From Aquimarina aggregata (GTDB lineage: Bacteria > Bacteroidota > Bacteroidia > Flavobacteriales > Flavobacteriaceae), in NCBI RefSeq assembly GCF_001632745.1, contig NZ_LQRT01000004.1, forward strand, positions 124,001 to 188,000: a DNA stretch of 64,000 bases, written 5' to 3'. The notes beneath the pieces were generated by a model. It was not told the origin of the DNA. It saw only the letters and a list, made by a program, of their open reading frames with translations, and ran no database searches. Within the stretch, counting starts at the first letter, position 1. Each line of letters begins with the position of its first letter. Both the position numbers and the translations under genes were made by a program. This document shows, piece after piece, positions 39,268-59,270 of the stretch.

Positions 39268-39308
39268 AAAAACCCATACATAAAAAGTGTTTTTATGTAT
39301 GGGTTTTT
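39268..39308. terminator. Bidirectional terminator, 19-bp perfect stem
   Basis: Arms 39268-39286 and 39290-39308 are perfectly complementary around a 3-nt loop, with A- and T-runs at the two ends. It serves the convergent acyl-CoA oxidase and histidine-heptad lipoprotein genes. Confidence 0.9.
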
Positions 39309-39330: not shown

Positions 39331-39840
39331 TTACTTTTGGTCTGAAACTTCTTCTGTAGCTTTCTCTTTATCTTCCTTTATCATTTTTTCATCTTCTTCA
39401 GTAATTCGTTTATGTTCGGCTGCTACATTTTTGTGCTCTTTCTCCATATTTTCATGTTCAGCTTTCACAGACTCATGTTCTTCTTTCATTTGTTCTAAAG
39501 TTATCTGACCAGAAGCATGTTTAATTTCTATCTCCTTATGTTTTTCTATTAATGCTTTGTGAGCCGAGATAAGTTCACTGTGCTTAGCTAATAAAGTTGT
39601 GTGATTCTTTTCAGTAACTATATGTATAGAATCGTTCTCTATAGTTTTATGAGCATCTACCATTTGTTGATGATCATCTTTCATATCATTGTGCTCTTTG
39701 GCCATAGCTTCATGAGAAGCCTCCATTTCTTGATGCTTTTCTACCATTGCTTTATGCTCTGGTGCTTCGGCAGGGTTTTGTTTGCAAGAAACAAACAAAA
39801 GAACTGTTGCAACTACTGCTAATTTACTAAGTGTTTTCAT
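39331..39840 (-). CDS. Histidine-heptad coiled-coil lipoprotein
   Basis: This 169-residue protein has a lipoprotein signal (LLFVSC, lipidation at C19), so it is probably periplasmic and membrane-anchored. The mature part is one long charged helix. Histidines recur every seven residues, at 29, 36, 43, 50, 57, 64, then after a two-residue stutter 73, 80, 87, 94, 101, 108, then one missed heptad, then 122, 129, 136 and 143. Sixteen histidines thus line one face of the predicted helix or coiled coil. Met or Ile often occupies the +3 position. Metal buffering (Zn, Cu, Ni) or pH-dependent assembly are possible. No family was recognised. It borders a locus rich in metal-homeostasis genes. A -7-like TACATTTG lies at 39866-39873. 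Confidence 0.75.
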   Translation of the reverse strand: MKTLSKLAVVATVLLFVSCKQNPAEAPEHKAMVEKHQEMEASHEAMAKEHNDMKDDHQQMVDAHKTIENDSIHIVTEKNHTTLLAKHSELISAHKALIEKHKEIEIKHASGQITLEQMKEEHESVKAEHENMEKEHKNVAAEHKRITEEDEKMIKEDKEKATEEVSDQK

Positions 39841-40103
39841 GATTTTGATTAATTGGTTTACGTTTCAAATGTATAAAACTAATTTTTCACTAAATTATTT
39901 TAAGTCCTCTTTTTTTAAATTAAACACTTCGTTTATCTAACAAGGAGTGTCAAAAAAGTATTTACTTATAACCAAAATTAAAATTGTTAAATGATTTGTA
40001 ATTTATTTTAAATAAAAGTTATTTTTTATTTAATCTTTTGCCAAAATTAGTTCTTTTGATCATCTTCAGGTAGGCGAACCTTTTTAATTATTATATTTAC
40101 CAA

Positions 40104-40418
40104 ATGAGATTGAACATTAATAAAAATATAATTTCTCTCTTTTTTGTTTCGGCTTTTATATTTCTTAAAGTTGTTAATGCTCATGCTTTTTCTCATTTTT
40201 CTGAAGACGATGATGATCAAACTCATTGTGAGCTATGTGAAATATTCACCACCACAAATCAGCTCACACCTTTTACCAATAATTCGTTAACGGAAATAGA
40301 ACAAAAGTTCATAGTTGCTTTTCAGGAACAGAAGATTAATTTTTGTTACGAAACTTCTCAATATAGTATTACACAACCCAAAAGTATTTATAACAAACCC
40401 CCTCCTTCAAAGTCATAA
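40104..40418 (+). CDS. Small exported Cys/His protein
   Basis: This 104-residue protein has an N-terminal signal or membrane segment (ISLFFVSAFIFLKVVNAHA) and a short acidic/His region HFSEDDDDQTHCELCEIF. The HCELC motif plus nearby His and Asp would suit metal binding, similar in style to DUF2946-like or CELCD-type exported proteins found near metal transporters. The remaining 60 residues are polar. No enzymatic domain is visible. It precedes a run of plus-strand genes that look metal-related. Function is unknown. Confidence 0.6.
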   Translation: MRLNINKNIISLFFVSAFIFLKVVNAHAFSHFSEDDDDQTHCELCEIFTTTNQLTPFTNNSLTEIEQKFIVAFQEQKINFCYETSQYSITQPKSIYNKPPPSKS

Positions 40419-40680
40419 GTATTGCTTTATTATTAGAACATTAATCTGTTTTATTACTTAATCATATTCTATTTTTTTTTAATCTGATAAATGCTTCATC
40501 CTGACTTTATAGGGATAAGCCTGCTTGTAGTAATTACATCTATTATATTCTAATATACAAATACTAGCATATTTTCTAACGGAATATCGTCTTTTGCAAT
40601 ACTTATTCTCTCCGTAATTTAAAAGATACAGCGGCAGAATGTATCCTTTTCTGCTATTTACAAATATAAATTCAGTAATA

Positions 40681-41154
40681 ATGATTACAAAACAAGATTT
40701 AGAAAATGCTCAAAAAGTATGGGGGCAAGGAGTAGTGCATATCGGAACATTACAATCTGATAGAGTTCAATGCGAAAATTATACGCAAAATTTTGTAGAT
40801 GAACTTTATGACTTTAAAAACAAACAGGTATTATTTAAACCTACTAAGGCTGCAATTGATCAATTCAGAACTACTAGTAAAAGTGCCATTTCGTATTTCA
40901 TTGGCGGAAATTCAAAATATACAGAAGATAAAGGATTTGCTCTCCAACCCTGGACATAAGTTAGGTTTGAAAATGCTGCTTTGATCTTAGAAGAAAACCG
41001 AGCGCTAGCTATGGGTAATTATTTTTTCACTGATATAAATGGACAAGATACCAAAGTCGAATACACTTTTGGGTATCGCAAAGACACGAATGGAAAACTA
41101 AAAATAGACGTACATCATTCGTCTTTACCATTTAATATAGAAGAAAGTGTATGA
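40681..41154 (+). pseudogene. Gene interrupted by one in-frame TAA (NTF2/SnoaL-like protein)
   Basis: Reading from the ATG at 40681, the frame runs 92 codons to a TAA at 40957-40959 and then continues open for 64 more codons to TGA at 41152-41154. That TGA overlaps the next ATG as ATGA. The post-stop part reads VRFENAALILEENRALAMGN, then a strand-rich segment (YFFTDINGQD) and a normal C-terminus, so the whole was recently one 157-residue protein. A single A-to-T change (AAA to TAA) would explain the break. The fold pattern and length resemble NTF2/SnoaL-like proteins. Similar proteins are often labelled phosphoribosyl-AMP cyclohydrolase, which I do not support, as no HisI zinc motif is seen. 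Sequencing error, true pseudogene or tolerated truncation are all possible. Confidence 0.75.
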
Positions 41155-41687
41155 GTTTTAATAAACTAGAATCCAGCAACTGCCTATTTCTGATTTGTCC
41201 AACAGATCATATAGAAATTATTTTAAGGCAAACTTGTAGTACTAATGCATTTTTCTATACGGCTCTTGGAGCTAATTTTAGGTGGGACATTGATACTCAA
41301 AAAAACCTTATTACCCTAATCGAGAATCAAAAAGTAGCCCAAATTGTTTTTGTAACAAAATACACGAACATGTTCTATAAAGAAATACTCGAACCCGAAA
41401 TTGAACCTTTTTTTCATGTTAGTGAAACATTTTTACAACTGGATAAGACGTTACCGGACTACTTATTAAATCAAAGTCATCCTATTTTAAGAACAATGCT
41501 TTTAGCATCTCGGCATTTACAAACACAACAAAAGTATATGCTAGAAACTGCTATTCTAGGAAAAGTCTTGAAACATAATGAAGTCACTACCCAAAGTTTT
41601 GTATACCACCCTAATAATCAAATTTTTTATCCCCCAAAAATAATTGAAAATAAGGTGTTATCGCACGGGCAAATATCACTTAACTAA
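41151..41687 (+). CDS. Degenerate beta-carbonic-anhydrase-like protein
   Basis: The product has 178 residues and starts inside the stop of the interrupted gene (ATGA overlap). The strand order LFLICPTDHIEIILRQ, then AFFYTALGANF, then LITLIENQKVAQIVFVTKYTN follows the core of beta-carbonic anhydrases (CADSRV, then VVRNAGN, then SLEYAVEHLGVKHIVVCGHS). The paired zinc ligands are missing: the first motif keeps a Cys and an Asp in altered spacing, and the HxxC motif is replaced. It would be a pseudoenzyme or bind something else. The resemblance is weak and is a hypothesis from pattern only. Coupling to the preceding gene and the neighbouring COG0523 GTPase fit a metal-stress set. Confidence 0.45.
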   Translation: MSFNKLESSNCLFLICPTDHIEIILRQTCSTNAFFYTALGANFRWDIDTQKNLITLIENQKVAQIVFVTKYTNMFYKEILEPEIEPFFHVSETFLQLDKTLPDYLLNQSHPILRTMLLASRHLQTQQKYMLETAILGKVLKHNEVTTQSFVYHPNNQIFYPPKIIENKVLSHGQISLN

Positions 41688-41702
41688 GATAATGTATAGA
41701 AC

Positions 41703-43910
41703 ATGTTTAGAGTTACAATTTTACTGCTTCTTATATATCATTTTAATGGATGGTCCCAGAAGGAAGAACAAAACTTTCCTCCTCAAAAGACACCTTTAGA
41801 AATTAAGGCAACAAAAACGGTAGGAAAAATAACAATTGATGGGGAGTTAAATGAAGCTGAATGGCAAAATACCGAAGCGGTCACAGATTTTTTTAGAGTA
41901 GAACCGATTCAAGGCGGATCCATTAAAAATGCAACTACAGTTCGTGTACTGTATGATAATAAGAATCTATATTTTGGTGTATTTGCCAAGGATTCTATGG
42001 GTAAAAAAGGTATCCGTATACAAGACCTAAGGCGTGACTTTAATAGTGGAGAAAATGATGTGTTTGGTATTCAAATTGATGCGCAGAATACCAAACAGTA
42101 TGCCGCTTCTTTTCAAACAACACCTTACGGTAATCAATTAGATCTTCAGAACTTTAATGATAATAACACTGATAGAGATTGGAATGCACTTTGGAGCGTA
42201 CGAACAAAGCGAACAGATATAGGATATTATGCCGAGTTCGCAATTCCGTTTAAATCTATACGTTATGATAAATCTATTAAAGGAGTTCCAGTAGAATGGG
42301 GCATTACCTTTTATCGACTTGCAAGAAAAGATTTTGAAAAGACAGTTTTTCCGGCAATTCCACAATCTTTCTCACAAAACAGGATGGTTTATGCAGCCAA
42401 ACTTATAGGTTTAGAAGTACCTCCCCCATCAGCTAACATTCGCATCGAACCATATACTTTGTATCAATATGATGAAAATAAGACTGGTAATACCATTACA
42501 AATAAATCGAATGACCCAAAAATTGGAGGAGATGTAAAATGGGCGATCAATCCTAATGCCGTACTAGATTTAACTTTAAATACTGATTTTGCACAGGCAG
42601 ATGTTGATAGGGCTGTAAATAACCTAGAACGTTTTACAATTTTCTTTCCAGAAAGACGGCAATTCTTTCTGGAAAATTCTGGTATATGGGCCGGAGGAGG
42701 TAACTCTCAAGTTCGTCCTTTCTTTAGTAGAACTATTGGTCTAGAAAATACTTTTAATGCCGCTCCCGCTCCTTTAGATGTTGGTGCTCGTTATACAGAC
42801 AGAAACGAAAACAGGACAATCGCTGCGCTTGCTGTTCGTCAACGAGATACCGATAATAGTCCCGCTAGTACTTTTGGTGTAGCCAGATACACCCAAAACT
42901 ATGGCAAAGAAAATAATATCGGAGCTATGGTTACGTATCGATTAGACGATTCTTCTAGAGATTTAGGAGTTTCTTCACAAAATAACACAACCATTTCTAT
43001 TGATGGATTTATCCGCCCTAAAAGCGAAATCACACTTTCTTATTTACTATCTACATCATTAGATAGTGAAACTGGTGATACAGGTTATTCTGGAAGAGTA
43101 TTTGCAGGATCTCGAACTAACAAATATTACCTTGGTTATGTTAATACTTTTGTAAGCAATTCCTATGCTCCGGATATGGGTTTTGTATTTCAAAAAGACG
43201 TCATGTATCATAGTCCGGGAGGATACGCTATTGTTCGACCTAAATGGTTACCTTTTGTACGAAGATGGGATCCTGGGGCCTTTTTAAATTACTATCATGA
43301 CTTTGAAGATTTTGGTAATTTTCAACAAGCAAGTATTTATATCTTTCCTATTTATACATGGTTTAAGGATAATAGTTTTATCGAAGCTTCTTTTACTCCT
43401 ACTTGGCAAAATATAAATTTTAATTTTGCTCCTCTAGGTCTGGAAATTCAAGAAGATGAATACCAATATACTAGGTTTCTATTGAGATACAATACAGACC
43501 AATCTAAAAAGTTATCAGCATCTATTCGGTATGATTTTGGGAATTTTTATAATGGTACGCGAAATACTGTTATAGCCGGATTACGCTATGCTCCTGTTCC
43601 GCATATTGCACTCTCTGCAGATTATGAACACAATGATATTAATGGATTAGGAATATTACAGGAAGACCTAGATACCGATTTGTATACTGCAAATCTGCGA
43701 TTGGCTCTTAATCCTCGCATGCAACTGTCAACTTTTTATCAATACAATAGCTTTAACGAACAAGGTAGATGGAATGTTCGCTTTAGCTGGGAGTATATGC
43801 CATTGTCGTTTATTTATTTAGTGTTTAATGATACACAAACTGATGTATTTGACCCGCTACAGCGCAATACACAATTCATTAGTAAAATAACCTTCTTAAA
43901 ACAGTTTTAA
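41703..43910 (+). CDS. DUF5916 outer-membrane protein with CBM9-like domain
   Basis: The product has 735 residues and a signal peptide ending near NGWSQ. Residues about 30-235 form a carbohydrate-binding-module-9-like sandwich (ITIDGELNEAEWQN, VRVLYDNKNLYFGVFA, YYAEFAIPFKSIRY). Residues about 240-735 are a DUF5916 beta-barrel region with DFAQADVDRAVNNLERFTIFFPERRQFF, the family's most conserved stretch, and a C-terminal aromatic strand ending in KITFLKQF. The family is widespread in Bacteroidota outer membranes and its function is not established. The gene starts 15 bp after the carbonic-anhydrase-like gene, so it is probably in the same transcript. Confidence 0.85.
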   Translation: MFRVTILLLLIYHFNGWSQKEEQNFPPQKTPLEIKATKTVGKITIDGELNEAEWQNTEAVTDFFRVEPIQGGSIKNATTVRVLYDNKNLYFGVFAKDSMGKKGIRIQDLRRDFNSGENDVFGIQIDAQNTKQYAASFQTTPYGNQLDLQNFNDNNTDRDWNALWSVRTKRTDIGYYAEFAIPFKSIRYDKSIKGVPVEWGITFYRLARKDFEKTVFPAIPQSFSQNRMVYAAKLIGLEVPPPSANIRIEPYTLYQYDENKTGNTITNKSNDPKIGGDVKWAINPNAVLDLTLNTDFAQADVDRAVNNLERFTIFFPERRQFFLENSGIWAGGGNSQVRPFFSRTIGLENTFNAAPAPLDVGARYTDRNENRTIAALAVRQRDTDNSPASTFGVARYTQNYGKENNIGAMVTYRLDDSSRDLGVSSQNNTTISIDGFIRPKSEITLSYLLSTSLDSETGDTGYSGRVFAGSRTNKYYLGYVNTFVSNSYAPDMGFVFQKDVMYHSPGGYAIVRPKWLPFVRRWDPGAFLNYYHDFEDFGNFQQASIYIFPIYTWFKDNSFIEASFTPTWQNINFNFAPLGLEIQEDEYQYTRFLLRYNTDQSKKLSASIRYDFGNFYNGTRNTVIAGLRYAPVPHIALSADYEHNDINGLGILQEDLDTDLYTANLRLALNPRMQLSTFYQYNSFNEQGRWNVRFSWEYMPLSFIYLVFNDTQTDVFDPLQRNTQFISKITFLKQF

Positions 43911-44061
43911 TATGTTAAATCAATTTAAAATCTACACTTTTCTTCATGATTTTTTGGGTATAGAAAAGAATAAAACCGAGCTAATCATAAAAAACGTAAT
44001 AATCAGTACAACTATAACAGTATCGCCAAAAAACCCCTACAAATAACTAACACATATTAAA

Positions 44062-44592
44062 ATGAAACTATCAACAAAATTTTATACCATATGGTTACTA
44101 GTAAATGTAGTATTTTTTTCTACCTCATTTACAAGTTCACATCCTATTAAATTAACCTCATCTTTAATTGAATACAATCCTAAAACATCTCGTTTACAAA
44201 TAGAATGCAGAGTTTTTATTGATGATTTCACATACAGTATAGATGGTACATTTACTAATAACATAAATCTTTCTAACCTCTCAAAAGAGGATAAAAAAGG
44301 AATTGAAAGGTACTTTGAAAAATTTTATCCAATAACCATTAATGACCATAGATTTCCTCTAAAATACGAGAATTCTAAGGTTCTAGAAGAACACAATGTA
44401 TTTATTCTTAAGTTTTCGCAAGAGGTCTTACCCATTAAAAAAGGCGATCAACTTTGTGTAGAAAATACTCTTTTTTTTGAAGAATTTGCATTTATGCAAA
44501 CCAATATGATTACAGTACGTGTCCCTCCTTTTATTAATGAAAATTACTTTGAAGCTACATTTGACGACTTTTCTTTACCTATAAATTTATAA
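44062..44592 (+). CDS. DUF6702-family exported protein
   Basis: This 176-residue protein has an N-terminal signal segment (TIWLLVNVVFFSTSFTSSHP). The mature part begins HPIKLTSSLIEYNPKTSRLQIECRVFIDDF, the characteristic opening of DUF6702, and continues as a beta-rich domain. It sits 12 bp before the HupE/UreJ-like membrane protein. In many Bacteroidota this pair is adjacent to zinc peptidases or metal genes. A periplasmic partner of the HupE-like permease is a reasonable inference, with no direct evidence here. Confidence 0.75.
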   Translation: MKLSTKFYTIWLLVNVVFFSTSFTSSHPIKLTSSLIEYNPKTSRLQIECRVFIDDFTYSIDGTFTNNINLSNLSKEDKKGIERYFEKFYPITINDHRFPLKYENSKVLEEHNVFILKFSQEVLPIKKGDQLCVENTLFFEEFAFMQTNMITVRVPPFINENYFEATFDDFSLPINL

Positions 44593-44604
44593 ACATATTT
44601 ACTA

Positions 44605-45192
44605 ATGAATAATTTAAGTTCTTTTTTTACTAATGGATGGGATCATATTGTTGATATACATGCGTATGACCATCTGTTATTTGTTATGACGTTATGCGCA
44701 GCATTCAAATTAACACAATGGAAACAAATACTGGTAATTATAACTGCATTTACCATAGGACATAGTGGAACTCTTATACTAAGTGCTTTAGATATTATTC
44801 CTGCAAATTCTACAATAGTAGATATGCTAATTCCCTTTACCATAATGATCACAGCACTAGCAAACATCATTAATTATAATAAACATGGTAAATTTTCTGA
44901 TACGAAAGTAAAATATGGAATCGCATTGGTTTTTGGCTTAATTCACGGACTAGCATTTGCAAGCAATTTTAAATTCATGCTATTTAGCGACAGTATTATC
45001 ATGCCTTTATTAGCATTTAATATTGGTATCGAAGTAGGGCAAATATTTATTGTGTTACTTTTTATGACCTCACTTTGGTTATATACAAAATTTATAAATG
45101 GAGCACATTTTAAATGGAATTTATTTATCTCTGGAGCGGGTTTTGGTATTGCCGCAACCATACTACTAAATGCTGTTAACGATGTACAATAA
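44605..45192 (+). CDS. HupE/UreJ-family membrane protein (putative metal permease)
   Basis: This 195-residue protein has about six transmembrane segments. Histidine motifs in the membrane are GWDHIVDIHAYDHLLF (about 12-27), TIGHSGTL (about 51-58) and GLIHGLAFAS (about 112-121). HupE and UreJ are nickel permeases in hydrogenase and urease clusters. In zinc-starvation loci the same family is suspected to carry zinc or cobalt. No hydrogenase or urease gene occurs in this window, so zinc is favoured by context. It follows the DUF6702 gene closely. Confidence 0.85.
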   Translation: MNNLSSFFTNGWDHIVDIHAYDHLLFVMTLCAAFKLTQWKQILVIITAFTIGHSGTLILSALDIIPANSTIVDMLIPFTIMITALANIINYNKHGKFSDTKVKYGIALVFGLIHGLAFASNFKFMLFSDSIIMPLLAFNIGIEVGQIFIVLLFMTSLWLYTKFINGAHFKWNLFISGAGFGIAATILLNAVNDVQ

Positions 45193-45249: not shown

Positions 45250-46215
45250 ATGATTTCAATTATGTTTCAACGTATAGCTATTTGTTCGATTCTTTTACTA
45301 TCCTTTGGTTCTTGTATTACACAAGGAAAAAAAGAAAATGACAATACTATTATCGATCGAAAAAAGATTGATGCAGTTTTTAATAAGGATATATCTAAAG
45401 TATTATTGGACCATTTATATGTGGTTGTAGATAGTATTACATATACCAAACTAACAAAAGATAATCAATGGAAAAATAAGTATGGTTCTCTAGATTCAGG
45501 ATTACCAGATTTTGCACCTGTTCATGATAAGGCACTTACTTGTTTTTTACGTGGGCATCAGCATTATATTGAGATTTTGAGTCCAAAAAATTCATACAAT
45601 GAACCTATAGGGAAAAGTGGTATTGGTTTCTCTTTAAAAAACAAAAATGAACATTTTCATTTAGGTGTCAAACCTAGATTGAAAATAACTAAAAACTCAT
45701 TTCTTTATGCTACCGAAACTGTAAAAATGCCTTTGAGAAACCATAAACATACGTGGTTTAAGGCTTTTTATACGCCTAGTCCCGGTACAGCTTTACATAC
45801 CTGGTATGGTTTCTATAATCCTACTTTTTTAGATAGTCTTTATGGAAACTATCATGCTACATATTCACGCGAAGCATTCCTTGAACCGGTATATACAGAT
45901 CAAAAACTTTTTAATGCAATTAAAGAAATTTACTTAAACTGTACTTTAAATGATTATCGTCGTATTATTCAGGAATTGAATTATTTAGGATGTAAATTCT
46001 TAGAAAAAAAAGGCAATATACTTACTATTGCCAGTGAGGATATTATCATTAACATACAACCTTCTGATCAGATTGAATATAGTAGAATCACTAAAATAAT
46101 TTGTCGACTGAATGATAAAGATGATAGTATTACCCAATTAGGTAACGTTACCATCACTAATCAAGGAACTGAATCGATCTGGGACTTTGATGAGCTTTAC
46201 AGAAATAATCCTTAA
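45250..46215 (+). CDS. DUF5829-like lipoprotein
   Basis: The product has 321 residues. The start at 45250 and an internal Met four codons later both give a lipoprotein signal ending SFGSC. The body resembles a VOC-like two-domain arrangement described as DUF5829: VLLDHLYVVVDSITYTKL at the start of the mature region, RGHQHYIEILSPKN and HTWYGFYNPTFLD further on. His residues are frequent (HLYV, HQHY, HFHLG, HKHTW). No catalytic assignment is possible. It lies between the HupE-like gene and the COG0523 GTPase on the same strand. Confidence 0.6.
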   Translation: MISIMFQRIAICSILLLSFGSCITQGKKENDNTIIDRKKIDAVFNKDISKVLLDHLYVVVDSITYTKLTKDNQWKNKYGSLDSGLPDFAPVHDKALTCFLRGHQHYIEILSPKNSYNEPIGKSGIGFSLKNKNEHFHLGVKPRLKITKNSFLYATETVKMPLRNHKHTWFKAFYTPSPGTALHTWYGFYNPTFLDSLYGNYHATYSREAFLEPVYTDQKLFNAIKEIYLNCTLNDYRRIIQELNYLGCKFLEKKGNILTIASEDIIINIQPSDQIEYSRITKIICRLNDKDDSITQLGNVTITNQGTESIWDFDELYRNNP

Positions 46216-46302
46216 AAGACTCTAATGTATAACTCCTGTTTAAAAAGTAATACATAGAATTTTATTAAAACATTAAAATTTACAACGAAAATATTCAAGC
46301 AA

Positions 46303-47520
46303 ATGAAAAAACTACCTGTAACTGTATTAAGTGGCTTTCTTGGTGCAGGAAAAACAACATTATTAAATCATATTTTACATAACAAAGAGGGACTAAAAGT
46401 TGCTGTTATTGTAAATGACATGAGTGAAGTCAATATTGATGTGCAACTTGTTGAAAACGAAAACACACTTTCTAGAACCGAAGAGAAACTTGTGGAAATG
46501 TCAAATGGATGTATCTGCTGCACCTTACGAGAAGACCTTATGCTAGAAGTAGAAAAACTAGCAAAAGAACAACGGTTTGATTATTTAATTATCGAAAGTA
46601 CTGGAATTTCAGAACCAATTCCTGTAGCACAAACTTTTAGTTTTGCCAGTGAAGATGGACAACTAGATCTAAGCCGATTCAGTTATGTTGATACAATGGT
46701 TACTGTTGTAGATGCATATAATTTCTTAAAAGATTTTTCAAGCTCACAGTATTTAATAGATAGAGAACTCACCAATATTGAAGGTGATGACCGAACTATT
46801 GTTAACCTACTTACCGATCAAGTAGAGTTTGCGAATGTAATTTTGTTAAATAAGGTGGATTTGGTAACAGAATCAGAATTAAGGAATTTATATGATATTA
46901 TTCATAAATTAAACCCAAATGCTCATGTTATTCCTACTCAAAATTCTAAAGTTTCCTTGCACGAAGTAATTGATACAGGTCTATTTGATTTTGAGGAAGC
47001 AGAAGCATCGGCAGGATGGATTCAAGAACTTGAAAATGAACACATCCCCGAAACCGAAGAATATGGAATTGGTTCTTTTGTTTATAGAAAACGTAGCCCT
47101 TTTCATCCTAATCGATTTTTAAATTTTGCTACACATCACTTCCCTTCAAATATTATTCGTAGTAAGGGATTATTTTGGCTTGCCTCTCGTCCCGACCAAG
47201 CTCTAGTTTGGGGTTCTGCTGGAGGATCACTTAAAACAGACCCTGCAGGAGTTTGGTGGGCTTCTATGCCTTTTAGCGAACGAATTAGTTATGCCTCATT
47301 TTTAGATAATCAAAATACAATAGAAGAAGATTGGGATGTTTCTTTTGGCGACCGTAAAACTGAATTAGTATTTATCGGTCAAAATATCGATGTAAAATTG
47401 GTCACTAAACATCTGGATGACTGTTTACTCACAGAACCAGAACTTGCACAATGGAAAAAAGGAGAATTCTCTACAAATGATAATTGGCCAATTCCAAATT
47501 ATCAAGAGTCATCAATGTAA
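46303..47520 (+). CDS. COG0523 (CobW/ZigA/YjiA) GTPase, putative metal chaperone
   Basis: This 405-residue protein has the Walker A motif [14 protein letters not shown] (about 10-23), the metal-binding CxCC motif in [11 protein letters not shown] (about 69-79), a G3-like ESTGISEP and the G4 motif NKVDL. A CobW C-terminal domain (about 245-385) holds the family signature FHPNRFLNF and GLFWLASRP. The family uses GTP hydrolysis to load metal into client proteins; zinc-linked members (ZigA type) are induced under zinc limitation. There is no poly-His stretch. Metal identity is inferred from neighbours: HupE-like permease, FolE copy, MerC and ABC transporter. Confidence 0.92.
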
Positions 47521-49440: not shown

Positions 49441-49878
49441 TTATTGCACTAATCTAGCTGTTGCTTCTTTTAATATATAATTACAGTGATCTACATCATC
49501 TACATTCAATTCTAATATTCCTACAACTTCTATTATCTGATCGGTTTTATAGTTTGGTTTATCTTTAAAAATAACTTCAATGATAGTTTCAGGGCCTGCA
49601 CCCCCACAGAAAAAACAGGAAGACATTGGATTTCGGGAAACCATATAAAATTCTTCTTCATAAGAAAAATCTAAGAAATAGCCTTTGATACTAATTTTGG
49701 ATCCTTGATATGATTTTATTTTATTATCAAATGTTGGTTTTAAAAAATAGTCATCATAGTATACATTATAAATATTATGAAAACTAACATTTGATAAATC
49801 ACTCCAAGATAATTTCTGTTGAGCAAAAAAATGAAATGGAATACTTATAAAAATAAGCAATAAAAGTACTTTACGCAT
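49441..49878 (-). CDS. DUF3299-like exported protein, ABC transporter partner
   Basis: This 145-residue protein has a signal peptide ending FHFFAQQ. The mature part starts LSWSDLSNVSFHN and contains ISIKGYFLDFSYEEEFYMVSRN, SSCFFCGGAGPET (about 86-98) and an OB-like C-terminal strand set (IIEVVGILELN). This matches the pattern of DUF3299 proteins. The CFFCGG motif may bind metal. It overlaps the permease gene by 8 bases. From memory, a similar set (FtsX-type ABC pair plus DUF3299 protein) is a Zur-regulated operon in Pseudomonas aeruginosa, PA4063-PA4066. The link is by analogy and unverified here. Confidence 0.65.
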   Translation of the reverse strand: MRKVLLLLIFISIPFHFFAQQKLSWSDLSNVSFHNIYNVYYDDYFLKPTFDNKIKSYQGSKISIKGYFLDFSYEEEFYMVSRNPMSSCFFCGGAGPETIIEVIFKDKPNYKTDQIIEVVGILELNVDDVDHCNYILKEATARLVQ

Positions 49879-51058
49879 CTCCCAGGGTTTTAGAAATATT
49901 TAACTTAAATAAAGAGAAAGAAGCCAAAATCGTGGCAAGTATTGTTATTAAAATTATTGCAATTAATAAAAAAAACTCTTCTATATCTGGCACACTTATC
50001 TCAAAATGATATGTATAACCATTTGTAGCCAAAGTTGAAAACAATAAAATGCCTACTCTTCCTAAAAACCACCCCAGGACACCCCCGATTAAAGATAAAA
50101 AAAGTGCTTCAAAAAAAATTAATTTTAATAGTTGAAAGGTGTTAGTTCCATAGGTTCTTAATAAAGCCAATTCATGTTTTCTTTCTCTTACTGTTTTTAT
50201 AAGATTAATAAAAATGCTTAAGCCCGCAATCAGAAATATTACTATAGCAATACTATTTATCGTTCGAAAACCAATACCTAGAAACTTTAATAACCGATCA
50301 ATTTCGAATTTTGGGAATGCCGCCTGTAATCCCGTTTCTTTATTGATAAATCTGGAAAATTGCAATGCCCCAATGGGATTCCTGAAGTTTAACAATAACG
50401 CTGTAATTTCTTTATGTTCTTCACTATATTCTTCATGCTCATCTTCAAAATCGTGAACTTTCCAAATACTTTCAAGGTTTGTGATTATTAGATTATCTAT
50501 TACCGTTCCTGTAGGCGCCAAGATACCTGTCACTATAAAAGGTTTTTCATCATGTACTTCTATTTCATTTTGTAATAATCCATGAGAACTTACAACAGAA
50601 TCCCCTATACGAATATTCAGTTTTTTTGCTACTTCAAAACCGAAAACTGTTTCAAAGTCTTGAACATTTAGTGCACCCTCTTTTAAAGTAGCTCTATATC
50701 TAAGTAAATATTTGTCTGAAGTACCTAGAATTTTATACCCCTTATAATTATCACCATAAGAAACTGGTATAGCATCTTTTACCATAGGGTTTTTAAGTAC
50801 TCCTAAAGCTTCATCCAGAGATATATTACCTGTTGGATTATCTATATGAAGTATTGCTGATAATACTAATTGTAATGGACTTCCTTTTGCACCAATTACC
50901 ATATCAAATGGTTTACTATTTTCCTGCAAGTGATGATTAAGTTGTTTACTTATTTGTAAAACAAAAGTAGTTAACACAATGCTTAATGTTAAAAGTGAAA
51001 TACTCAAAACAGTATTCAAAGGCTTGGAAATAAGATTTTTGAAAGCTAAGTGTAACAA
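49871..51058 (-). CDS. FtsX/MacB-like ABC transporter permease
   Basis: This 395-residue protein has one N-terminal membrane segment (about 14-36, VLSISLLTLSIVLTTFVLQI), a long periplasmic MacB_PCD-type domain (about 40-260) and three C-terminal segments (about 270-293, 318-340, 358-383) typical of FtsX permeases. The periplasmic region contains an acidic His-bearing stretch (WKVHDFEDEHEEYSEEHKEI) that could touch metal. It follows the ATPase gene by 2 bp and overlaps the DUF3299-like gene. Transport substrate is not shown by sequence; context suggests a role in metal supply or extraction of an envelope component. Confidence 0.85.
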   Translation of the reverse strand: MLHLAFKNLISKPLNTVLSISLLTLSIVLTTFVLQISKQLNHHLQENSKPFDMVIGAKGSPLQLVLSAILHIDNPTGNISLDEALGVLKNPMVKDAIPVSYGDNYKGYKILGTSDKYLLRYRATLKEGALNVQDFETVFGFEVAKKLNIRIGDSVVSSHGLLQNEIEVHDEKPFIVTGILAPTGTVIDNLIITNLESIWKVHDFEDEHEEYSEEHKEITALLLNFRNPIGALQFSRFINKETGLQAAFPKFEIDRLLKFLGIGFRTINSIAIVIFLIAGLSIFINLIKTVRERKHELALLRTYGTNTFQLLKLIFFEALFLSLIGGVLGWFLGRVGILLFSTLATNGYTYHFEISVPDIEEFFLLIAIILITILATILASFSLFKLNISKTLGDA

Positions 51059-51060
51059 TT

Positions 51061-51693
51061 TTATAAAGTTATGTGTTTCTTAAAATGTGATTTAACTCTT
51101 TGGTCATGGGTAATAATTACCAAATTACTTTTACAAATTTGAGCCTCTTTTTTTAGCAGAGAAATCACCCTTTCACAATTCGCATCATCTAAGTTAGAGG
51201 TAGGTTCATCTGCTAATATCACTTTTGGTTTATGTACAACACCAAGGGCAATAGAAAGTCGCTGCCGCTGTCCTTCACTTATTTCATGTACTTTTTTGTT
51301 TTTAATTTCAGTCAATTCTAATTGTTCGATTAATTGTTTTCTTCTGTGTAGATCTATTGTTTTTCTAGACAGTTTTTCACGCATGCTTAGATTTTCTTGT
51401 ACAGTCAAAGACTTAATAAAATATGCTCTTTGAAAAATTAACCCAATATGCTTTCCTCTAAAATCGTTTAATTGACTTCTTGTGAGTTGATGTATAAGCG
51501 TATTACCAATATATACATTTCCTTTTTTCGGAATCAAAAGACCTGCCATAAGATGAAGTAAAGTGGTTTTCCCGATACCCGAAGGTCCTATAATTAAAGC
51601 GTTTTCTTTAGATGTTAAATCTATACGAGGGAAATAAAAAGTATGATTTTTTGAATTTTGATATGCAAAACTTAATGATGTCGTTCGGACCAT
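51061..51693 (-). CDS. ABC transporter ATP-binding protein
   Basis: This 210-residue ATPase has Walker A GPSGIGKTTLLHL (about 34-46), the signature EISEGQRQRLSIA (about 134-146), Walker B VILADEPTSNLDD (about 154-166) and the H-loop histidine in VIITHDQR. It is of the LolD/MacB type that pairs with FtsX-like permeases. The start at 51693 is close to a divergent promoter region containing a large palindrome. It leads a three-gene operon with the permease and the DUF3299-like protein. Confidence 0.93.
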   Translation of the reverse strand: MVRTTSLSFAYQNSKNHTFYFPRIDLTSKENALIIGPSGIGKTTLLHLMAGLLIPKKGNVYIGNTLIHQLTRSQLNDFRGKHIGLIFQRAYFIKSLTVQENLSMREKLSRKTIDLHRRKQLIEQLELTEIKNKKVHEISEGQRQRLSIALGVVHKPKVILADEPTSNLDDANCERVISLLKKEAQICKSNLVIITHDQRVKSHFKKHITL

Positions 51694-51707: not shown

Positions 51708-51735
51708 CAAAAATAAATAAATTTTATTAATGCAA
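51708..51735 (-). promoter_or_regulatory. Candidate promoter of the ABC operon
   Basis: On the minus strand TATTTTTG (plus 51708-51715) fits the TAnnTTTG element, with TTG (plus 51733-51735) at 17 bp spacing inside the palindrome. The predicted leader is very short. Confidence 0.45.
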
Positions 51736-51755
51736 CTTTGTTGCATTAATAAAAT
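51721..51755. promoter_or_regulatory. Perfect 16-3-16 palindromic operator (Fur/Zur-like)
   Basis: The arms 51721-51736 and 51740-51755 are perfect inverted copies around TTT, with core ATGCAAC-TTT-GTTGCAT. The site covers the -33 elements of both divergent promoters and is ideally placed to repress both the ABC operon and merC-folE. Its size and dyad are like operators of Fur-family repressors. The gene content suggests Zur, which is inference. Confidence 0.65.
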
Positions 51756-51769
51756 ATGTATTATCTTTG
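51741..51769 (+). promoter_or_regulatory. Promoter of the merC-folE genes
   Basis: TTG at 51741-51743 and TATCTTTG at 51762-51769 match the Bacteroidota -33/-7 consensus with 18 bp spacing. The upstream element lies within the palindrome. Confidence 0.6.
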
Positions 51770-52210: not shown

Positions 52211-52888
52211 ATGAACAAAATGAATAGAGAAAAAATAGAATATGAAGGAGATGCACATATTTCTAGCAGCGTGGACACTCCTTTGGTTAAGAATGCTTTT
52301 GAAACATCCGACAATGATAAAATTAAAAATATTCAACATCATTTTTCGGAAATCATGAAAGAATTAGGACTTGATTTAACCGATGATAGTCTTCGAGGTA
52401 CACCCTATAGGGTTGCTAAAATGTATGTAAAAGAGCTCTTTTATGGTCTAAATCCTCACAATAGACCAAAAATATCGACTTTTGAAAACAAATATGGATA
52501 TCAAAAGATGTTAGTAGAACAAAATATTAACATAGATTCTGCTTGTGAACATCATTTCTTACCGATAGTTGGCACTGCCCATGTTGGATATATCCCAAAA
52601 GATAAAGTAGTTGGATTGTCAAAAATTAACCGACTTGTCGATTATTATTCTCATCGTCCGCAGGTACAAGAAAGACTTTGTTTACAAATTCTAAAAGACT
52701 TACAACAAACTTTAGAAACCAAAGATGTTATTGTGGTGATAAATGCGAAACATTTATGTGTTTCTTCCCGTGGAATCAAAGATAAAAGTAGTTTTACAAC
52801 AACCTTAGAATATGGGGGGCAGTTTAAAGAAGTTTCTTTACGAAATGAATTCTTGGAAATTATAAAGAACGATAACAACACTTTTTGA
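52211..52888 (+). CDS. folE: GTP cyclohydrolase I
   Basis: This 225-residue FolE type IA enzyme converts GTP to dihydroneopterin triphosphate for folate or biopterin synthesis. Key motifs are DSACEHHFLPIVGTAHVGYIP (about 112-132), with the zinc Cys and catalytic His, GLSKINRLVDYYSHRPQVQE, and KHLCVSSRGIKD with the second zinc Cys. Zinc ligands are therefore retained, so this is not the zinc-independent FolE2 form. Placement after merC and under a Fur/Zur-like palindrome suggests a back-up copy expressed in metal limitation. Whether another folE exists in the genome cannot be seen. Confidence 0.95.
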   Translation: MNKMNREKIEYEGDAHISSSVDTPLVKNAFETSDNDKIKNIQHHFSEIMKELGLDLTDDSLRGTPYRVAKMYVKELFYGLNPHNRPKISTFENKYGYQKMLVEQNINIDSACEHHFLPIVGTAHVGYIPKDKVVGLSKINRLVDYYSHRPQVQERLCLQILKDLQQTLETKDVIVVINAKHLCVSSRGIKDKSSFTTTLEYGGQFKEVSLRNEFLEIIKNDNNTF

Positions 52889-54296: not shown

Positions 54297-54330
54297 ATGA
54301 CAAAAAAAACACTCTTAAAACATAAACATA
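53328..54330 (+). repeat. Four tandem leader/start-codon repeats, period about 300 bp
   Basis: Start codons lie at 53367, 53663, 53960 and 54297. Around each, the order is a T-rich stretch, AACCCC, TTAAA or TAAAC, ATATG, a short run of A with AAATAC or AACAC, and CTTAAAAC (lost in the second copy). Between copies weaker similarity continues, for example AATGTAA followed by ACTATC and T-runs, so whole units were duplicated and have diverged. Only the last copy leads into a long frame. Confidence 0.6.
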
Positions 54331-57300
54331 ATTCCATAAATTTTAGAAAGACACTACAACCCAGTAAAGTATTACTAATAGCTAAAAAACGTACAATAAT
54401 CATTTGCCTTTTTTGGATATTTGGAACATCAATCCATGCTCAGGATTTTATTACTACATGGGAAACAACAACTGCAAATGAAATTATTACACTACCCAAT
54501 AGTGGAATGGCTGCAGGTTATAATTTTACTGTAGATTGGGGAGATGGAACACCGATTGAATTAAATGTAAATACTCCCGGAAAACAGCATACATATATAA
54601 CCCCTGGTACTTATACAGTCAGGATTAGCGGGCAATTTGAAGAGTTTGATTTTACTGGTACCCCAACAAGTCCGAGTGCCAACAATTTATTATTTGTTAA
54701 CCAGTGGGGAAATTTAGCCGTATCTAAACTTAATTTTAGTGGTGCAAGCAGATTTCAAATTACAGCAACCGATAATCCAGATTTAACCAATGTAACTTCA
54801 TTTGACAACCTATTTAGTGGTGCCTCTACAGTAAACGCTGATTTATCTGGTTGGATAGTTTCAGGAATTACAAGTATGAACGGAACCTTTCGTGATGCTA
54901 TAGCATTTAATGGAAATGTTAGTACTTGGAATACAAGTGAGGTAACGAGTATGGTAGACACTTTTTCTGGAGCCTCTGCTTTTGATCAAAATATCTCTGG
55001 TTGGAATACTGCTAAAGTAACCGACATGTCAACTATGTTTTTTAACGCCTTAATATTTAATCAAGATATAAGCGGTTGGGTTACTAATGAAGTTCTTAAT
55101 ATGACAGGAATGTTTAACGGTGCTGCTAGATTTAATCAAAATATTGGTGGCTGGAATACAAGTAAAGTAACTAACCTAAGTTTTATGTTTTTTAGAGCTA
55201 CAGCATTTAATGCAACTATTGGTAGTTGGAATACAAGTATGGTAACCGACATGACCTTTATGTTTGCAAGTGCATCAACATTTAATCAAGATATTAGCGG
55301 ATGGATTACTAGTGAAGTGAGGGATATGAGCAGTATGTTTTCTGGTAGTTTAAGGTTTAATCAAAATATTGGAAGTTGGGATACTACTAAAGTAGAAAGA
55401 ATGGCATTTATGTTCGCTAATGCCAGAGCGTTTAATCAAAATATTAGTGGTTGGGATACCGCTAATGTACTTAGTATGTCATTTATGTTTAATAGTGCCA
55501 TTGCATTTAATCAAAGTTTAGCAAATTGGAATATCAGTAAGGTTACATCACTATTCAATACTTTATCAAATACTGGTTTATCTACCTTAAATTATGATGC
55601 GACATTGATAGGATGGGCCAATCAGACAGTACAATCTGGACTTAATTTAGGAGCAAATGGATTGACATACTGTTTAGGAGAAACTGCCCGAAATACACTA
55701 ACAAATGCTCCAAATCTATGGGTAATAACTGATGATGGGTTGGATTGTTCTTCTTTATTTATAACCTCTTGGGAAACCAACACTACAAGTGAAATGATCA
55801 CTTTACCTAATGACAATGGTAATGGATCACTACAATATAATTTTAGTATTGATTGGGGAGATGGCACAGCTATTGAAACCAATGTTACCACTCCTAATAT
55901 GACACATACCTACGCTATACCTGGTGTATACACAGTGACTATTGATGGGCAGTTCGAGAGTTTTGATTTTGAAACGGTTCCTAACAATACTACAAATATC
56001 TTATCTGTAGAACAATGGGGAAACTTGTTAGTATCAAAACTTAACTTCAAAGATGCTATCAATTTTCAAATAAACGACATCAATGCGCCAGACTTATCAA
56101 GAGTAACTTCGTTTGATAACTTGTTTAATGGTGCAACTACAGTAAATGCTGATCTCTCAGGGTGGAATGTCATCACTATCCAAAGTATGAATAGAACTTT
56201 TCTTGGTGCTACAGCTTTTAATGGAAACATTAGTACATGGAATACAGCCAATGTCGAAAGTATGAGTTCTATGTTTAACAATGCTACAACATTCAATCAG
56301 GACATTAGCAATTGGGATACAAGTAATGTTCTAAAAATGGATGCTATGTTCGAAAATGCAATTGTTTTCAATCAAAATATCAGAACATCAGGTACAAGTT
56401 GGGATACAAGCAAAGTGGATGATATGAGCTTTATGTTTAATAATGCTCTTGTATTTAATCGGGATATAAGCAACTGGTCCACAAATACTGTCACCGATAT
56501 GTCAAACATGTTTAACAATGCTCCTGAATTTAATCAAAATATTGGTAGTTGGATTACGGATAATGTAACTGATATGAGTGCCATATTTAATGCAGCAACT
56601 GCATTTAATCAAGATCTTGGTGGTTGGAATATTAGTAAGGTAGCATCAATGTCTGATGCACTTTCTAATTCTGGTTTATCTACACAAAATTATGATGCTA
56701 CATTAATAGGATGGGAAAGTCAAACCGTATTAACTAATGTAATTTTAGGTGCAGATGGATTAACATACTGCTTGGCCGGAAATGAAAGAAACCGATTAAT
56801 CAACAACGATTTATGGACTATTAATGGGGATAGATTGGGGTGCTCATCAATATTAGCCTTTTCCATTTCTAAAACTACAGATGCGATTGAAGGCACTTCA
56901 AACGCTACATTTACGATAAGTATTGATGGAGGAATAATCAACACTACCGGAGCCCCTATTACAGGAACACTTACACTAACAGGTACCGCCACTAATGGCT
57001 CAGATTATACAGATGTAACTACATTTTCTATTCCTAATGGAGATACCAATATTATTGTCACCATTCCGGTAATTGATGATACAGAAGTAGAAGTACTCGA
57101 GACAATTATTGCCACTTTATCTACCACAAATACTGGTAATATAAATGCTACAAATAATACCGCTATTGCAACAATAACAGATGATGATAGTGCATCTTTA
57201 ACTATTTCTATTGGATCTCCTGTAGATGCTATCGAAGGAACTTCTGATGCTACTTTTACTGTTAACTTAGATAACGGTGTGAGTAATAATACCGGTACAT

Positions 57301-59270
57301 CAATTACTGGAACACTTACACTTACAGGTACTGCCACTAACGGAGCAGATTATAGCAATGTGAGTCTGTTCGAAATTCCAAACGGGAGTACTTCCGCAAC
57401 GATAACCATTCCTGTAATTAATGACAATGAGATAGAACCACAAGAAACTATTATTGCCACAATATCTTCACCAAGTCTAGGGACTATAAATACATTGAAC
57501 AATTTTGATACTGCATTCATAACAGATGATGATGCATCGGCACTCTCCTATTCTATTACCAAAACAACAGACGCCATTGAAGGTACTTCTGATGCTTCTT
57601 TCACCGTAAGTATTGATGGAGGAATTGTTAATACTACCGGAATGCCTATCACAGGCATATTTACATTTAGTGGTACTGCTACTAACGGAGTTGATTATAC
57701 CAATGTAACAGGGTTTTCAATTCCAAACGGAAGTGCTAGTGTGATAGTTACCATTCCGATAATCGATGATCTCGCAGTAGAATTACCGGAAACTATCATT
57801 GCCGAAATTTCTAATCCAAGTATAGGAAATATAAATTCTACAAATACTACAGATACTGCGATTATCGCAGACGATGACAGTACATCATTAACTATTTCGA
57901 TTGGATCACCAGTAGATGCTGTCGAAGGTACATCAGATGCTACTTTTATAGTAAGCTTAGACAACGGATTACGCAATGAAACAGGAAGCCCTATTATCGG
58001 ATCGATTACCTATAGCGGTACGGCAATTAATGGTATCGATTATACAAACATAATGGCTTTCTCAATTCCAGATGCAGCTTCTAATGTGATCGTAACTATT
58101 CCTGTCATTGATGACACCTTAGTAGAACCTATAGAAACTATAATTTCAACAATATCTGCACCAAATATTGGAGCAATAAATATTAACAATACTAGCGCCA
58201 TAGCTAATATAATTGATGATGAAAGTACATCGCTCACTATTTCTATTGGATCCCCGATAGATGCGGTAGAAGGGTTTTCTGATGTGAATTTTACGATAAG
58301 CTTAGATAACGGAGTAACCAATCAAACCGGATCTCCTATTACAGGAACGATAGTACTTACAGGAACAGCAAGTAACGGAGTAGATTATACAAACGTAGTG
58401 ACATTCTCAATTCCTGACGGTAGTACTACCCAAACAGTAGTAGTTCCTGTTATTGATGATACCGAAGTAGAACCATTAGAAACTATTATTGCTACAATAT
58501 CATTTCCAAATATCGGATCAATTAATGCATCATCAGCTACCGCAAGTATAACAGATGATGATATTCCACCAAACCCTAATTTGGCTTTATCAAAAATCGG
58601 GAACTATGAAGACTCAAATAATGATGGCGTATTAAATCTAGGAGACCAAATTGTATATACTTTTACTATTGAAAATAATGGTACTGAAACAATTACCAAT
58701 ATTAGGCTTACCGATCCATTACCTGGGATTATTTTGAATGGAGAATCAATTAATCTTGATTCTGGCGAAATTGATAATTCAACATTTACTGCAATATATG
58801 AACTTACCGAAAATGATATTCTTACGGGTAGTGTTATAAATCAGGCTTTTGTAACCGGTATAGATCCATTAAATATGGAAATAATTGACTTTTCTGATGA
58901 TCCAAATAACGATACCAATATTGATGATGACAATGATGGCGATGGTGAAGACCCAACAATTACTGATCTTATTATTGAAGATGAATTGATTGTATATGAA
59001 ATAATTACTCCAAATGGAGATGGATTAAATGATGAATTAAGGATTTCCGGATTAACCAAGTTTCCAAATAATACCATAATCATATATAATCGTTGGGGTG
59101 CTAAAGTCTTTGAAGCAAGCGGCTATGAACAAAAAGGTGTCCCTTTATTTAATGGAATTGCCAAAGGAGAAAAAAAAGTACTCCCAACAGGTTCCTATTT
59201 CTTCACATTACAATATCAAAATACAATTGGCAATTCATCTAGTAAATCTGGGTTTATACACATCAACTAA
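54297..59270 (+). CDS. T9SS type B surface protein with BspA-like and Calx-beta repeats (surface module 2)
   Basis: The product has 1657 residues. A long charged N-terminal region leads into the export segment IIICLFWIFGTSIHAQ (about 34-49). Two homologous halves follow (about 50-485 and 487-855). Each opens with a PKD-like sandwich containing DWGDGT and continues with DUF285/BspA-type leucine-rich units of about 25 residues (consensus FNQDISGWNTSKVTDMSFMF). Next come five Calx-beta domains of about 115 residues (about 857-1423), with DAIEGTSDATFTV and VDYTNV motifs. A DUF11-like sandwich follows (about 1425-1530). The end is a CHU_C/gliding-associated type B sorting domain (ITPNGDGLNDELRISG to the end). 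It is likely an adhesin handled by the PorP/SprF and OmpA genes immediately downstream. Confidence 0.9.
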   Translation: MTKKTLLKHKHNSINFRKTLQPSKVLLIAKKRTIIICLFWIFGTSIHAQDFITTWETTTANEIITLPNSGMAAGYNFTVDWGDGTPIELNVNTPGKQHTYITPGTYTVRISGQFEEFDFTGTPTSPSANNLLFVNQWGNLAVSKLNFSGASRFQITATDNPDLTNVTSFDNLFSGASTVNADLSGWIVSGITSMNGTFRDAIAFNGNVSTWNTSEVTSMVDTFSGASAFDQNISGWNTAKVTDMSTMFFNALIFNQDISGWVTNEVLNMTGMFNGAARFNQNIGGWNTSKVTNLSFMFFRATAFNATIGSWNTSMVTDMTFMFASASTFNQDISGWITSEVRDMSSMFSGSLRFNQNIGSWDTTKVERMAFMFANARAFNQNISGWDTANVLSMSFMFNSAIAFNQSLANWNISKVTSLFNTLSNTGLSTLNYDATLIGWANQTVQSGLNLGANGLTYCLGETARNTLTNAPNLWVITDDGLDCSSLFITSWETNTTSEMITLPNDNGNGSLQYNFSIDWGDGTAIETNVTTPNMTHTYAIPGVYTVTIDGQFESFDFETVPNNTTNILSVEQWGNLLVSKLNFKDAINFQINDINAPDLSRVTSFDNLFNGATTVNADLSGWNVITIQSMNRTFLGATAFNGNISTWNTANVESMSSMFNNATTFNQDISNWDTSNVLKMDAMFENAIVFNQNIRTSGTSWDTSKVDDMSFMFNNALVFNRDISNWSTNTVTDMSNMFNNAPEFNQNIGSWITDNVTDMSAIFNAATAFNQDLGGWNISKVASMSDALSNSGLSTQNYDATLIGWESQTVLTNVILGADGLTYCLAGNERNRLINNDLWTINGDRLGCSSILAFSISKTTDAIEGTSNATFTISIDGGIINTTGAPITGTLTLTGTATNGSDYTDVTTFSIPNGDTNIIVTIPVIDDTEVEVLETIIATLSTTNTGNINATNNTAIATITDDDSASLTISIGSPVDAIEGTSDATFTVNLDNGVSNNTGTSITGTLTLTGTATNGADYSNVSLFEIPNGSTSATITIPVINDNEIEPQETIIATISSPSLGTINTLNNFDTAFITDDDASALSYSITKTTDAIEGTSDASFTVSIDGGIVNTTGMPITGIFTFSGTATNGVDYTNVTGFSIPNGSASVIVTIPIIDDLAVELPETIIAEISNPSIGNINSTNTTDTAIIADDDSTSLTISIGSPVDAVEGTSDATFIVSLDNGLRNETGSPIIGSITYSGTAINGIDYTNIMAFSIPDAASNVIVTIPVIDDTLVEPIETIISTISAPNIGAININNTSAIANIIDDESTSLTISIGSPIDAVEGFSDVNFTISLDNGVTNQTGSPITGTIVLTGTASNGVDYTNVVTFSIPDGSTTQTVVVPVIDDTEVEPLETIIATISFPNIGSINASSATASITDDDIPPNPNLALSKIGNYEDSNNDGVLNLGDQIVYTFTIENNGTETITNIRLTDPLPGIILNGESINLDSGEIDNSTFTAIYELTENDILTGSVINQAFVTGIDPLNMEIIDFSDDPNNDTNIDDDNDGDGEDPTITDLIIEDELIVYEIITPNGDGLNDELRISGLTKFPNNTIIIYNRWGAKVFEASGYEQKGVPLFNGIAKGEKKVLPTGSYFFTLQYQNTIGNSSSKSGFIHIN

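Follow-up and report, generated by a model that had tools for sequence, protein, structure and literature searches.

Gene neighborhood of the dyad

The window analyzed here, a 64-kb stretch of an Aquimarina aggregata contig, contains two divergently oriented gene sets separated by a perfect inverted repeat (dyad) at 51721–51755, which we predict to be a Zur operator. To its left, on the minus strand, lie a LolD/ZrgC-like ABC ATPase (51061–51693) and an FtsX/LolE-type, ZrgB-like permease (49871–51058), both assigned by profile matches and together providing the ATPase and FtsX-type permease of a Zrg-type ABC system. The next gene on that strand (49441–49878), in the position of ZrgE, encodes a 145-aa protein that by eye appears to be exported and carries an invariant CFFC motif. 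Profile matches did not reach an assignment of this protein to DUF3299, the ZrgE family, as the window protein gave no match and one of 12 homologues matched with an E value of 0.077. Because no ZrgA was recognized in the operon (DUF2796 matched none of the nine neighboring proteins scanned), we call the ABC system only zrgCBE-like.

To the right, on the plus strand, a MerC-family membrane protein (PF03203; 51799–52203) is followed by a GTP cyclohydrolase I, FolE (52211–52888). MerC is known as a mercury carrier, and the protein encoded here is a candidate zinc or metal permease. The FolE gene, one of four PF01227 genes in the genome, encodes an ordinary FolE with CEHH and LCVS ligand motifs identified by eye. 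The left part of the window also holds a ZigA-like COG0523 GTPase gene (46303–47520, plus strand; 564.6 bits against a cut-off of 600), a member of what we refer to as the zinc island. A second box ahead of this gene was considered and rejected, since 46000–46330 contains no Zur box within four mismatches. In relatives, several small conserved genes with no assigned function (at 39331, 40104, 40639 and 41151, a DUF6702 gene and a HupE-like gene; 39331–45192) are found alongside ZigA in the zinc island. Beyond folE, the region 54297–59270 encodes a surface protein of 1657 aa that has DUF285 and Calx-beta repeats and bears a type IX secretion signal.

A perfect dyad over two predicted promoters

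The dyad consists of the arms ATTTTATTAATGCAAC and GTTGCATTAATAAAAT around a TTT center, with the outer parts of the arms made up of A and T only and the conserved core lying within TGCAAC-N3-GTTGCA (51731–51745). The initial annotation had described it as a perfect 16-3-16 palindrome, among the longest perfect dyads of the window and overlapping −33 elements on both sides, and each part of that description was recovered. The palindrome was re-found and ranks second among the perfect dyads with loops of up to 10 nt, while the overlap was found on promoters that are themselves predicted. When the 64 kb were resampled 30 times under a first-order Markov model, the longest arm was 13, and no resampling gave one of 16. 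The one longer dyad, a 19-3-19 repeat at 39268–39308, lies between convergent genes and resembles a two-way terminator. Elsewhere in the window the motif ATGCAAC-N3-GTTGCAT had a single further match, with three mismatches, and the total of two matches is not above the chance mean of 3.23.

The predicted promoters were called with what we take to be the Bacteroidota-type −33/−7 consensus. The predicted merC-folE promoter (51737–51769, plus strand) combines a −33 element TTTG (51737–51740), a spacer of 21 nt and the −7 element TATCTTTG (51762–51769); a TTG at 51741–51743 with an 18-nt spacer offers an alternative −33 element on the same strand. The predicted promoter of the ABC operon (51708–51735, minus strand) has a −33 element TTG (51735–51733), a 17-nt spacer and the −7 element TATTTTTG (51715–51708). 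In both cases the −33 element lies within the dyad and the −7 element outside it, and the genus alignment (best 20 of 24 loci) shows largely conserved sequence around each −7 element. The size of the dyad fits the Fur family, and its overlap with predicted promoter elements is what would be expected of a Zur operator.

Conservation of a short core within the genus

The ABC ATPase is present in 29 of 56 relatives, 24 of which are among the 33 genomes of the genus, the genus figures being counted from the listing. We aligned the best 20 of the 24 ATPase-bearing genus genomes, the window included, and inspected G554 additionally. GCAAC-NNN-GT(T/C)GC was kept at the same place before merC in all 20 of these best loci, the conservation in related genomes expected of a Zur operator. 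The arms around it vary: among the same 20 of 24 loci, the perfect arm is 16 nt in the window, 14 nt in G545, 8 nt in one locus, 5 nt in sixteen and 2 nt in one, where the right half reads GTCGC. The center is AAA in 17 loci, AAT in one, AAC in one and TTT in the window only. Since arms longer than 8 nt occur in only two of these 20 loci, conservation does not extend to the long arms, which suggests that the arm length of the window dyad is largely incidental and that the smaller core is what is conserved. The G545 locus, whose 14-3-14 repeat is the sole other long palindrome at the genus operator among the best 20 of 24, lies on an island that runs off its contig.

The core motif in the own genome and in other Bacteroidota

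No second perfect core was found in the window's own genome. Ten sites there differ from the core by one mismatch, eight of them inside genes, and the two intergenic ones (L009 and L014) adjoin no recognizable zinc gene. A relaxed motif gave 14 one-mismatch sites, 11 inside genes. Scans of the same genome allowing two mismatches (126 matches against 66 for the control) were mostly uninformative, and the relaxed motif scan gave 198 against 105. One near-copy, C60:236989, upstream of a subtilase gene, was not counted, as it sits in a longer palindrome and its changes read as G-U wobbles. At L218:2365, a relative of the near-copy, and at L014:1501, a long palindrome containing the core (23-3-23 in L218) precedes a subtilase gene by about 190 bp; the wobble-type changes between these two suggest an RNA hairpin, which the near-copy may be. 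All nine genus mates compared, by contrast with the own genome, have a second site within one substitution of the core, intact in eight of them.

Across 149 Flavobacteriaceae genomes the perfect core occurred at 59 sites in 44 genomes against eight matches of the reversed control, and the flanked core at 89 sites in 58 of 395 Bacteroidota genomes against 12 control matches (these totals were counted by hand from listings, and the 59 was verified by a recount). Of the 59 family cores, 25 have a Zur-like gene (21), merC (16) or both no more than 400 bp downstream, a count that drew on 66 of 147 FUR entries and 33 of 39 MerC entries, such that the omitted ones could only increase it; about 0.01 would be expected, computed with an assumed 153 + 39 genes. 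The other 34 cores are near neither gene, and 10 of the 13 of these that were opened are inside an ORF. Seen from the side of merC, a perfect core stands upstream of 16 of the 33 genes typed, and cores with one or two mismatches precede several more. At least nine loci have a pair of cores upstream of merC, spaced 37–40 bp apart, and in most of these loci the pair separates divergent zur and merC genes. Such pairs of cores or near-cores (L093–L096, L100, L103, L106, L109 and L114) apparently provide one site per promoter, and the window has one for both.

In a scan of named genomes (at least 117 stretches), the genes that cores faced included fur, merC, cobW and zrg-like ones. The Pfam families of 149 facing genes, a set that includes the window itself and leaves out genes shorter than 85 aa or cut by contig ends, were led by MerC (21) and FUR (17), with Pyr_redox_2 (11), ABC_tran (10), cobW (9), TonB plug (4) and ZnuA (1) also represented. 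These genes matched 74 families in all; 15 of the 149 are in part not zinc-linked by name, 11 of them Pyr_redox_2 proteins. In 149 background genes, drawn from L127–L243 only, FUR was matched three times and MerC and cobW were outside the 25 most common families. The search for the motif upstream of other metal genes that the initial annotation had called for was thus positive in relatives, with zur-like, merC, CobW, ABC and ZnuA genes behind it; its expectation of a second core near metal genes was borne out in relatives and failed in the own genome, which has no second perfect copy. At four loci (L025, L026, L030 and the site at 1501 of L047) a perfect core precedes a gene for a small exported protein, in three cases near an RND-type efflux gene as judged by eye, and a Fur-family gene lies about 2.7 to 7 kb away, possibly representing a second type of regulon.

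Candidate repressors

In most of the genus mates examined, a Fur-family regulator is encoded in the zinc island itself. We obtained 16 genus-mate stretches, of which 15 were informative; that of G545 (1.9 kb, at a contig end) was not. Of these 15, 12 carried a linked zur gene in the island, and beside it lay a subtilase gene together with a second site, either a core or a near-core. The exceptions were G567, which has the second core and no zur, and G536 and G554, which have other layouts. The corresponding place in the window, 39841–40103, contains neither a zur gene nor a core, and no subtilase gene; no Zur-like gene linked to the operator was found in this species. Because both the linked zur and the second site are absent, an unlinked paralogue presumably binds the operator here.

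The genome encodes three PF01475 proteins, the Fur-like L001, which by eye adjoins a purA-like gene, and the Zur-like L002 and L003. L002 matches PF01475 above the cut-off and belongs to the Fur family. An HxHF motif, the CxxC that follows it and the last CxxC are invariant in all 20 aligned Zur-like proteins, and the CxxC pairs and HxH motif that L002 shows in this alignment are presumably metal ligands. Pfam, NCBIfam and PDB searches did not distinguish Zur from Fur for either L002 or L003: against solved chains, Fur and Zur score alike with L002, and its only NCBIfam matches, to Fur and Irr, are below the cut-off.

The island Zur of the genus mates shares about 36% identity with L002 and belongs to a different clade. 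The tree places L002 with the L002-type proteins of G567 and G560 (support 0.935). G567, which has no zur in its island stretch and keeps two cores, has an L002-type protein that is 64% identical; G560 carries both Zur types, and its L002-type protein is 61% identical. The merC gene of G567 (L320; L366:999–1223) is shortened to 74 codons. We take the binder in this species to be presumably the unlinked L002, encoded on contig C7, and less likely L003; the comparison weakly favors L002.

Some relatives of these proteins have sites of their own. Three genes of the L002 clade (L276, L277 and L329) carry TGCAACAAAGTCGCA, which differs from the usual core by one mismatch, at their start or immediately ahead of it, and no site of that type precedes L328 of G567. 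The TCGCA half-site, slightly unlike the window core, is frequent before genes of the L002 and L003 clades, and variant operators built from it, often paired, stand upstream of Fur-family genes at L276, L277, L278 and L329–L335. The 200 bp upstream of L002 contain no site within three mismatches, and there is accordingly no sign that L002 regulates itself. L003 lies, by eye, near a gene for a thioredoxin-reductase-like flavoprotein. A separate 7-1-7 motif considered for L003 was dropped, because beyond its own tandem copies it had one perfect match, inside a gene.

A proposed zinc-dependent operator and its alternatives

We propose that the dyad is a Zur-type operator that probably places two divergent promoters under joint, zinc-dependent control. 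In abundant zinc, a Fur-family repressor would bind TGCAAC-N3-GTTGCA as a zinc-loaded dimer, cover both −33 elements and silence the two flanking operons, the zrgCBE-like ABC operon to the left and merC-folE to the right. Under zinc scarcity, the dimer would lose its zinc and leave, and both operons would fire together, supplying proteins for zinc uptake or handling (the ABC system and MerC) and extra FolE. The dyad overlaps both predicted promoters, its core is conserved throughout the genus loci aligned, and elsewhere the same core is associated with zur-like, merC, cobW/ZigA and znuA genes; from this we infer the binding, the zinc signal, the repression and the identity of the binder. The operator for the ABC operon and merC-folE that the initial annotation had predicted is supported by the metal genes of relatives and by the consensus of the Desulfovibrio box described below.

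The dyad might instead work as an RNA hairpin, either a terminator or an attenuator, and it does give a strong predicted RNA fold on both strands (z about −6). Any perfect palindrome in DNA would fold, however, and arms longer than 8 nt were found in only two of 20 loci (best 20 of 24). The dyad also lies upstream of both predicted −7 elements, such that neither transcript should contain it and the dyad would act as DNA; we therefore rejected this very improbable reading. That the palindrome is a functionless product of chance is harder still to believe, given that no resampling in 30 reached an arm of 16 and that the core is conserved in 20 of 20 loci (best 20 of 24), although for the outer arms, which are A and T only while most relatives have 5-nt arms, chance is still a plausible origin.

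Two other explanations accept an operator. The site could be a relic, left without a binder after the linked Zur was lost, with both operons constitutive or otherwise controlled: this genome lacks the linked zur and second site that 12 of 15 genus mates have, and the Fur-family search found only the Fur-like L001 and the Zur-like L002 and L003. A relic is nevertheless unlikely, as the core is intact, its arms are the longest among the genus loci (best 20 of 24), and G567, also without an island zur, keeps two cores and an L002-type protein (64% identity). It is likewise improbable that the operator serves a Fur-family sensor of another signal, such as iron, manganese or redox state. The flavoprotein gene near L003 and the 11 Pyr_redox_2 members among 149 facing genes would fit such a sensor, but MerC is the most common facing family and FUR the next, ABC, CobW and ZnuA are also present, and the Desulfovibrio counterpart fronts znuABC.

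Under the preferred reading of zinc-dependent control, one may go further and picture a swap of repressors, in which the linked Zur, the second site and the subtilase gene were deleted and L002 took over the sole remaining site, now a long palindrome, with MerC serving as a dedicated zinc importer of a Bacteroidota Zur regulon. This scenario is possible, and we offer it tentatively. For Bacteroidota, the locus provides a zinc-repressor motif that can be put to the test, together with a candidate regulon of merC, folE, zrgCBE-like genes, zigA and zur; the core would link MerC proteins to zinc starvation, and the genus pairs with and without a linked regulator are material for studying repressor replacement.

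Comparison with known Zur regulons

No description of a Zur motif for Bacteroidota was found in the literature covered (titles, abstract openings and passages). No Zur operator appears in the excerpts of two Porphyromonas Fur papers, and the string 'bacteroid' is absent from the main text of both Haas (2009; PMC2770081) and a Zur review (PMC6103462). The passages of the former place Zur-linked COG0523 genes mainly in Firmicutes, Proteobacteria and some cyanobacteria. The present locus resembles the Zur-linked COG0523/folate clusters in that one zinc locus holds both a ZigA-like GTPase and a GTP cyclohydrolase; in the passages describing those clusters, however, the cyclohydrolase is the zinc-independent FolE2 or the metal-promiscuous FolE_IB, whereas here it is an ordinary FolE (PMC2770081, PMC10882993).

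The ABC operon recalls the ZrgABCDE system of Vibrio parahaemolyticus, in which, in the sections consulted, zrgC (ATPase), zrgB (permease) and zrgE (DUF3299) belong to one operon of the Zur regulon whose expression rises under zinc deficiency (PMC9817125). Both loci have an ATPase, a permease and a small protein in one operon, with Zur control predicted here. The differences are that neither ZrgA (the zinc-binding DUF2796 protein) nor ZrgD was recognized at our locus and that DUF3299 is not established for the small protein.

The closest counterpart of the operator comes from another phylum. As given in the relevant passage of Rodionov (2004; PMC545781), ATGCAACnnnGTTGCAT is predicted to be the Zur box ahead of znuABC-zur in two Desulfovibrio species. 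In our own searches, Nitratidesulfovibrio liaohensis had ATGCAACnnnGTTGCAT where a ZnuA gene starts, with ABC and FUR genes coming next, and in another deltaproteobacterium it preceded FUR, ABC and ABC-3 genes. The Desulfovibrio box has the same 17-bp consensus as the site here, with a Fur-family gene nearby and zinc transport genes downstream; its target is znuABC, whereas the targets here are the zrgCBE-like operon and merC-folE, and the single site here would serve two divergent promoters, both sites being predictions. The window site is very probably a docking site for Zur, as predicted from its sequence, and could be a starting point for defining the Zur motif of Bacteroidota.
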